25,858 bases of DNA from assembly GCF_001556515.1 (NCBI RefSeq), contig NZ_LSJA01000251.1, forward strand, positions 1 through 25,858, given 5' to 3'. A program made the translations under genes and the position numbers. The stretch comes from Caulobacter sp. CCH9-E1 (GTDB lineage Bacteria; Pseudomonadota; Alphaproteobacteria; Caulobacterales; Caulobacteraceae). The notes beneath the pieces were generated by a model. The model searched no databases, was not told the DNA's origin, and was given only the letters and a program-made list of their open reading frames with translations. Positions 22,187-23,463 of the stretch are shown in pieces; position 1 is the stretch's first letter, and the number at the start of each line of letters is the position of its first letter.

Positions 22187-22261
22187 GGGCAGTTAGCTCA
22201 GCGGTAGAGCGTCTCGTTTACACCGAGAGGGTCGGGGGTTCGATCCCCTCACTGCCCACCA
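22187..22261 (+). tRNA. tRNA-Val (anticodon UAC)
   Basis: A 75-base gene including CCA. The acceptor GGGCAGT (22187-22193) pairs with ACTGCCC (22251-22257). The anticodon stem TCTCG/CGAGA encloses loop TTTACAC with anticodon TAC. The D arm TAGCTCAGCGGTAGAGC and T arm GGGGGTTCGATCCCC are canonical. Confidence 0.97.
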
Positions 22262-22313
22262 TTCCTCTTCACAGCCAAGGCATCCGGCCCCCGGGCCAAG
22301 GTCACGCTTTCGC

Positions 22314-22341
22314 TTGGAGTTTGCGATCAAGATGATATCAT
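22314..22341 (+). promoter_or_regulatory. Candidate promoter of the SPFH operon
   Basis: TTGGAG (22314-22319), 16 bases, TATCAT (22336-22341). The -10 box lies inside the palindrome at 22321-22352, so a protein bound there would block RNA polymerase. Confidence 0.45.
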
Positions 22342-22352
22342 TTTGATCGCAA
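22321..22352. promoter_or_regulatory. 32-bp near-perfect palindromic operator
   Basis: TTGCGATCAA (22321-22330) and its exact reverse complement TTGATCGCAA (22343-22352) flank ATGATATCAT (22332-22341), itself a perfect palindrome. Only the G22331/T22342 pair breaks the symmetry. It ends four bases before the GGAGG ribosome site of the SPFH gene. Its length and symmetry point to a dimeric or tetrameric regulator; the ribbon-helix-helix protein of the same operon is the obvious candidate, and a PadR-type regulator elsewhere is another. A role as an RNA hairpin is less likely, since the likely start of transcription lies within it. Confidence 0.75.
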
Positions 22353-22367
22353 CGCTGGAGGTGCGTC

Positions 22368-23261
22368 ATGTCTGAGACCCGGACCATCAACCCGACCAAC
22401 GAACGCCCGTACGGCGGCGTGAACGGGGGTGCCGCGCTATTGGCCGCACCCTTGCTTCTAGGACTCGGGATTTGGCTGCTCCTTCAGGCGCGAGACGGCG
22501 GCGGCGCGTTTTTCACGCTCTCTGGCGCGGGGTGCGTGAGCCTCGCGATCCTGGTGTCGTGCGGCTTCTATTCGCTGCAGCCGAACGAGGCCTACGCCAT
22601 CACGCTGTTCGGCGCGTATGTGGGCACGGACCGCGCGACGGGCCTGCGCTGGATCCTGCCTTGGTATGGCCGCAAGAAGATTAGCCTGCGGGTGCGCAAC
22701 GTGACCAGCGAGACGCTGAAGGTGAACGACAAGCGCGGCAACCCGATCGAAATCGCGGCCAACATCGTCTGGAGGGTCAAGGACTCGGGGCAGGCGCTGT
22801 TCGACGTCGATGACTACGCCGCCTTCGTGAACATCCAAATCGAGACGGGCCTGCGCGAGGTCGCCTCGCACTACGCCTACGACCATGCGGAGGAGGGCGA
22901 GCCCACGCTGAGGGCCGACGCTGAGGAGGTGGGGGATCGCCTGCGAAAGGATCTGCAGCAGCGCACCGCCGTCGCCGGCGTTGCGATCGACGAAGCGCAC
23001 CTGATGCATCTGGCCTACGCGCCGGAGATCGCCGGCTCGATGTTGAAGCGTCAGCAGGCCGAGGCCGTGCTGGCCGCTCGCCGAACCATCGTCGCCGGCG
23101 CCGTCGACATGGTCGAAAGCGCGCTTGGCCAGCTCAGTGACCGCGGCGTGGTCGCTCTAGACGACGAGCGCCGAGCCTCAATGGTGTCCAACCTGCTGGT
23201 GGTGCTCTGCGCCGACCGCGAGGCCCAGCCCGTGGTCAACACCGGCACACTCTACGGCTGA
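22368..23261 (+). CDS. SPFH (prohibitin/stomatin-like) membrane protein
   Basis: The 297-residue product has a polar N-terminus of about 20 residues, two hydrophobic segments (about 20-40 and 48-68) and then a cytoplasmic SPFH/Band-7 domain to about 250 (GFYSLQPNEAYAITLFGAYVGTDRATGLRWILPWY...). An alanine- and charge-rich helical part and a short C-tail follow. SPFH proteins oligomerise in membranes and scaffold proteases, lipids or stress responses; the specific role is unknown. The ATG has a GGAGG ribosome site at 22356-22360. The gene ends one base before a ribbon-helix-helix gene, and such SPFH/RHH pairs also occur, as I recall, in xanthomonad-type gammaproteobacteria. No NfeD-like partner is present. 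Confidence 0.88.
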   Translation: MSETRTINPTNERPYGGVNGGAALLAAPLLLGLGIWLLLQARDGGGAFFTLSGAGCVSLAILVSCGFYSLQPNEAYAITLFGAYVGTDRATGLRWILPWYGRKKISLRVRNVTSETLKVNDKRGNPIEIAANIVWRVKDSGQALFDVDDYAAFVNIQIETGLREVASHYAYDHAEEGEPTLRADAEEVGDRLRKDLQQRTAVAGVAIDEAHLMHLAYAPEIAGSMLKRQQAEAVLAARRTIVAGAVDMVESALGQLSDRGVVALDDERRASMVSNLLVVLCADREAQPVVNTGTLYG

Positions 23262-23262
23262 C

Positions 23263-23463
23263 GTGGCGAGCGACCAAAATGACGCCAAGGGCGGTCGGCG
23301 CGCATTCCTGATGCGCGTCAGTCCCGAGGTCCTGTCGGCCATCGAGCGACTGGCGGCGTCCGAGTTGCGTAGCGTGAACGCACAAGTCGAGGTATTGCTA
23401 CGCGAAGCGCTAGGGCGTCGCGGCGTTGCTCGGAAATCGTCCGGGAACGGCGAGGAACCCTAG
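23263..23463 (+). CDS. Ribbon-helix-helix (Arc-like) protein
   Basis: A 66-residue protein with the core of an Arc/MetJ-type fold: strand RRAFLMRV at 12-19, then PEVLSAIERLAASELRSVN and a second helix AQVEVLLREALGRRG. Such proteins bind palindromic operators as dimers of strands. The GTG at 23263 follows the SPFH stop by one base and lacks its own ribosome site, so translation is probably coupled; a downstream ATG at 23311 would cut the strand and is less likely. It may repress its own operon at 22321-22352. The HicB-antitoxin name often given to relatives is not supported here, as no HicA toxin is adjacent. Confidence 0.8.
   Translation: MASDQNDAKGGRRAFLMRVSPEVLSAIERLAASELRSVNAQVEVLLREALGRRGVARKSSGNGEEP

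Follow-up and report, generated by a model that had tools for sequence, protein, structure and literature searches.

A Caulobacter palindrome as a probable Arc-kind operator of an autorepressed SPFH-RHH operon

Autorepression of an operon by its own product is a well-known principle. In the case of the Arc repressor, the half-sites of the operator lie 11 bp apart and residues of the protein strand enter the major groove, Q9, N11 and R13 being the strand contacts. Bacterial SPFH proteins, for their part, are often of unknown function. The Escherichia coli ribbon-helix-helix (RHH) antitoxin RelB is described, in the available text of its report, as binding in adjacent dimers on one face of the DNA and autorepressing its own operon (PMC2812701). 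Concerning SPFH membrane proteins, the available parts of two further reports describe the NfeD-SPFH, HflK-HflC and QmcA operons, in which the SPFH protein has an operon partner (PMC8656257, PMC13086221). No paper linking SPFH operons with RHH or Arc-family DNA-binding proteins was found in the open-access literature and, among the matches listed, an operator switch of an SPFH-RHH operon seems undescribed.

The palindrome considered here stands between a tRNA-Val gene (22187-22261) and an SPFH/Band 7 gene in the window, that is, the whole 25.9-kb stretch of DNA that was analysed, whose nearest kin are Caulobacter genomes. It is formed by two 16-nt arms that are 94% complementary, without spacer and with a single non-matching pair, and it is the top-scoring palindrome of the window. 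Among 200 copies of the window generated with a second-order Markov model, 1 reached its score, and its G+C content is 34% versus 66% window-wide. These results confirmed the preliminary description, which had reported an almost perfect 32-bp palindrome at this position and had considered its length and low G+C content very unlikely by chance. In our opinion, with a probability of about 80%, the palindrome is an Arc-kind operator of an autorepressed SPFH-RHH operon, whose features are collected in Table 1. An assignment of the palindrome to the tRNA-Val gene is not supported, since the box described below accompanies the SPFH operon where the upstream neighbours differ.

Table 1. Features of the SPFH-RHH operon and of its putative operator in the window.
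Feature	Position	Strand	Basis or remark
Weak -35-like hexamer TTGGAG	22314..22319	+	direct reading
Putative whole operator, 32-bp near-perfect palindrome TTGCGATCAAGATGATATCATTTTGATCGCAA	22321..22352	.	palindrome search and sequence
Upstream outer box TGCGATCA, 6/8 to TGATATCA, 11 bp from centre	22322..22329	.	
Central box TGATATCA, 8/8	22333..22340	.	window's only exact copy
-10-like hexamer TATCAT, 16 nt past TTGGAG, inside operator	22336..22341	+	direct reading; putative element
Downstream outer box TGATCGCA, 6/8 to TGATATCA, 11 bp from centre	22344..22351	.	
Shine-Dalgarno GGAGG	22357..22361	+	
SPFH / Band 7 membrane protein, 297 aa, operon gene 1	22368..23261	+	Pfam PF01145, E 3.7e-20
Arc-type ribbon-helix-helix protein, 66 aa, GTG start, proposed operator reader	23263..23463	+	family profile

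Read in the register of TGATATCA, the operator consists of three 8-bp boxes at 11-bp steps (TGCGATCA, TGATATCA and TGATCGCA). Comparison of the regions upstream of orthologous SPFH-RHH operons, suggested beforehand as a check, revealed that this operator is conserved. In fact, among the best 80 of 124 confirmed relatives, TGATATCA with at most one mismatch was located within 120 nt of the SPFH start in 70 loci. In nine of the remaining ten, AAAGTGATATCACTTT occurs without mismatch at a greater distance upstream, ahead of a short first gene; the last one, the Caulobacter locus L029, has none. Sphingomonad and gammaproteobacterial loci also present the box, often with a second or third copy 11 bp off.

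Regarding the gene order, Asticcacaulis, Devosia and Phenylobacterium have a short gene of about 65-68 codons ahead of SPFH, and the operator is shifted to a position before this gene (L042:2292-2489, L040:2130-2336; L095:2617-2805). In L095, the RHH gene is followed by a DUF4177-like gene, a match with an E of 1e-4 that is below the cut-off.

The co-occurrence of the box with the RHH gene was analysed in all the loci collected, pooled and with duplicates removed, which resulted in 142 SPFH loci, 134 with and 8 without RHH according to the profile. The box was accepted with at most one mismatch from -400 to +40 nt of the expected SPFH start. It was found upstream in all 134 RHH-bearing loci (127 exact and 7 with one mismatch) and in none of the 8 RHH-less ones (L029, L120, L130, L132, L133, L134, L169 and L170, the sequence 3' of SPFH being just 156 nt long in L134). 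As controls, other 440-nt stretches of the same loci gave 32/554 matches with at most one mismatch and 1/554 exact, and shuffled upstream regions gave 48/710 and 2/710, respectively. Moreover, the eight genomes with RHH-less loci showed no RHH match genome-wide (searched at E 1e-4 in G718 and at E 1e-3 in the other seven). Since the box and the RHH gene are present or absent together, the RHH protein, already named as a candidate regulator in the preliminary description, is the probable reader of the box.

A tree was built with 69 of the 142 SPFH proteins, which included all eight RHH-less ones, most of those from outside the genus Caulobacter and a selection within it. On this tree, the RHH status must have changed at least three times, and the co-occurrence rests on only about three independent changes. 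L029 is placed inside Caulobacter and L120 beside the RHH-bearing L121, both on well-supported branches, and L133, L134, L169 and L170 are distant or long-branched. In the RHH-less rows other than L029 and L120, which are partly long-branched, the RHH gene may never have been there. As for L029, its promoter aligns with those of its sisters, the left half of the operator being kept and the right half decayed. We read this locus as an RHH loss inside Caulobacter and its operator half as a relic; a half-decayed site is the expected result if the operator lost its reader.

To describe the spacing, TGATATCA was scored at each offset from -36 to +36 from the main box in the 134 RHH-bearing loci. 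Matches of at least 6/8 were found at +11 in 86 loci and at -11 in 47, and no other offset within 36 bp gave more than three. With a threshold of at least 5/8, none of the 134 loci lacks an outer box at 11 bp from the main box (both in 58, downstream only in 52, upstream only in 24, neither in 0). The only peaks are those at -11 and +11, so the sub-sites are about one helical turn apart, as in Arc-type sites. According to these counts, the conserved feature is a series of boxes spaced by one helical turn, and the palindrome of the window just happens to be symmetrical. What was seen earlier as two nested dyads is therefore more fittingly read as three boxes of 8 bp that recur every 11 bp; the earlier proposal of an operator is supported. 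The long arms TTGCGATCAA and TTGATCGCAA were rejected as a motif: with up to three mismatches they were matched in 7 of 61 genomes, the TGATATCA core being in the middle only in G001 and G031, and arms that are both long and perfect occur in close relatives only.

Alternatively, the palindrome could work at the RNA level by forming a hairpin in the 5' leader, immediately ahead of the ribosome site, and the window sequence does fold at -22.6 kcal/mol (z -4.51). However, the 32-nt stretch of the window, with -18.3 kcal/mol, is the third lowest of the 134 loci, whose median is -6.5, the symmetry at a distance of 8-14 bases from the centre is down to 34-49% of the loci, and a 5/8 outer box is present on one side only in 76 of the 134. 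Furthermore, if transcription started just past TATCAT, most of the palindrome would not be part of the transcript. The hairpin as a conserved feature was rejected on the folding and symmetry of the 134 loci, although that of the window itself is strong, and a function in RNA is considered very improbable.

Another regulator encoded elsewhere (PadR, TetR, GntR or the like) could read the operator, with the RHH protein doing something else; many families bind palindromic operators. This is unlikely, given that it leaves unexplained both the loss of the box alongside that of the RHH gene and the register of direct repeats at 11 bp, and no constant neighbour besides RHH was seen among the neighbours, which were viewed unsystematically. 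PadR-family regulators had been proposed for binding assays, but nothing pointing to PadR was found, and no PadR gene came up among the four scanned genes of the window.

Regarding the promoter, most of TATCAT falls inside the central box, and the operator ends four bases 5' of the Shine-Dalgarno sequence. A strict sigma-70 scan found no promoter at 22250-22400 because the -35 candidate TTGGAG is weak, and for this reason the promoter is one that we infer. TTG[ACG][CA] words help in this respect: they begin 19 bases before the main box, the same offset as TTGGAG, in 36 of the 134 RHH-bearing loci, with 24 further counts at 20-21 bases. No terminator was found by scan. It is likely that the palindrome overlaps the -10 element of the SPFH-RHH operon, which agrees with the earlier proposal of an operator over the promoter and just before the ribosome site. 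This position is also relevant to the possibility that the boxes are an activator site or that the RHH protein both represses and activates, as some RHH proteins such as AmrZ do according to the part of their description that is available. However, a central box that coincides with a -10-like hexamer would usually mean occlusion; hence, activation seems hardly credible at this site, and autorepression by the RHH protein is preferred.

The RHH gene begins one base after the end of the SPFH gene, and it is followed in the window by a glycosyltransferase gene. On its own, the window RHH protein is below the Pfam cut-offs (RHH_5, E 0.0075; Arc, E 0.052). The family was represented by an alignment of 41 proteins, with RHH frames picked by profile search (117 of 133 were obtained and 40 of these were used). 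The best solved relatives of the 41-member profile are Arc repressor chains (1u9p, E 9.2e-9; 1arq, E 1.9e-4), and Pfam Arc was matched by 22 of the 41 members at E ≤ 0.01. The family profile thus presents Arc homology over the RHH core. The AlphaFold2 monomer lacks the RHH fold: it contains helices at 15-18 and 21-53, the second a long one, and no strand (pTM 0.45), although a monomer gives no measure of an intertwined dimer. Concerning toxin-antitoxin systems, no toxin gene was found beside the RHH gene, its neighbours being the SPFH and glycosyltransferase genes, and one plasmid RHH homologue is merely annotated as a HicB-family antitoxin.

The 16-mer AAARTGATATCAYTTT was searched in 75 genomes of the genus Caulobacter with one mismatch allowed. 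SPFH was found in 40 of these genomes, RHH in 43 and the 16-mer in 39, at 45 places; the 16-mer written backwards, used as a control, gave 1 match. Comparison of positions placed 38 of the 45 sites just upstream of SPFH, and 38 of the 39 genomes having both SPFH and RHH carry the 16-mer there with at most one mismatch. In the remaining genome, G734, the 8-mer is present without mismatch and its flanks are weaker. Four other genomes (G034, G731 and G002, corresponding to L248-L250, and G745) present N-terminally incomplete RHH matches, without SPFH and without the 16-mer, and these matches are probably relics of operon deletion.

Beyond the genus, paired boxes 11 bp apart, with one mismatch, were found in 20 of 249 genomes in a phylum-wide search. 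The pattern written backwards was found in 1 genome, although we judge it a poor control as it is rich in rare TATAG-type words. Among the 20 fetched paired-box loci, 7 are SPFH-RHH loci and the other 13, two of which were read, are away from SPFH and RHH; chance may be one explanation for the latter. Four TGATATC(A/G) boxes at 11-bp steps are located at about 1501-1541 of L151, a stretch without SPFH or RHH.

Seven plasmid records with an RHH match were also surveyed, six of which were fetched. In five of these six, SPFH precedes RHH, and all five have the box: exact in Qipengyuania, Bosea and two Deinococcus plasmids, and with one mismatch in Rhizobium. Hence, the box reaches beyond the phylum, to the two Deinococcus plasmid SPFH-RHH loci. 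In a Thermus thermophilus plasmid (L259), an RHH relative with 49% identity closes a row of ABC-transporter genes, and no TGATATCA box was found within 5.1 kb of it. Therefore, use of the TGATATCA box does not necessarily extend to RHH relatives in other settings, and the Thermus protein is possibly the same type of regulator with a different operator.

Each of the seven AAARTGATATCAYTTT places that are not at SPFH (in G012, G715, G724, G726, G027, G020 and G728) is followed 53-69 nt later by an open frame of 33-34 codons (L242-L247 and L255). This frame encodes a hydrophobic, MLG...RL(V/A)A.VLFGALLAGG-like micropeptide, a membrane-spanning candidate judging from its sequence alone, and in the loci that were read its neighbour is a 2-hydroxyacid dehydrogenase gene. 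The single copy tested had no Pfam or NCBIfam match. A protein search at E 0.01 detected the micropeptide in 7 of the 75 genomes, namely six of the seven site-bearers and G026, whose copy has no site; the G728 copy was found by reading only. Because the same site precedes this frame, the micropeptide gene may be a second target of the RHH protein in some Caulobacter. The G728 site precedes the micropeptide frame in an assembly (91% complete, 370 contigs) where neither SPFH nor RHH was found, which speaks in favour of the regulator encoded elsewhere that was considered above. A tentative extension of the proposed autorepression is a membrane circuit with two targets, where the Arc-type protein would control its own operon and, in some Caulobacter, the micropeptide gene, with the repression lifted by the SPFH protein or by the state of the membrane. 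If this were true, the SPFH scaffold and the micropeptide would rise together. The site also marks this unannotated membrane micropeptide as a possible partner.

What the sequences show directly is the boxes with their spacing and conservation, and that boxes and RHH gene occur or are missing together. From this, we infer that the RHH protein binds, that the outer boxes are filled cooperatively and that the effect is repression rather than activation. In the proposed mechanism, the 66-aa product of the second gene would bind the TGATATCA box as a dimer, and the outer boxes, 11 bp away, would receive further dimers on the same face of the DNA. The row of dimers would cover the -10 element and the start site and would exclude RNA polymerase, and the SPFH and RHH genes would thereby be held at a low, self-set level. 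With this, a conserved SPFH family of Alphaproteobacteria, Gammaproteobacteria and Deinococcus gains a predicted dedicated repressor and a predicted operator, and knowing what lifts the repression would tell when the cell wants the SPFH scaffold. What makes the case interesting is the strict linkage with SPFH and the possible micropeptide target; the principle itself is not new.

In comparison with the NfeD-SPFH, HflK-HflC and QmcA operons, where the partner is a membrane or protease-linked protein and the available parts of the reports name no RHH partner (PMC8656257, PMC13086221), the partner here is a DNA-binding protein. RelB and its operator relO, as far as described in the available text, share with this locus the side-by-side RHH dimers, whose binding is predicted here, and the autoregulation of their own operon (PMC2812701). 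According to the same text, relO differs in that its two 12-bp half-sites contain 6-bp repeats and in that a toxin serves as co-repressor (PMC2812701). No toxin gene is evident here. The likeness to the Arc repressor of phage P22 extends over a gap-free alignment of 42 residues, in which the F-x-L-R strand and the RSVN turn are shared, and includes the 11-bp spacing of the sub-sites. Nevertheless, the sub-sites here are themselves palindromic TGATATCA boxes, often three of them, and the positions of Arc Q9, N11 and R13 are occupied by A14, L16 and R18. Unlike in Arc, the target is a cellular membrane-protein operon, and the proposed reader is encoded by the downstream gene of that operon.
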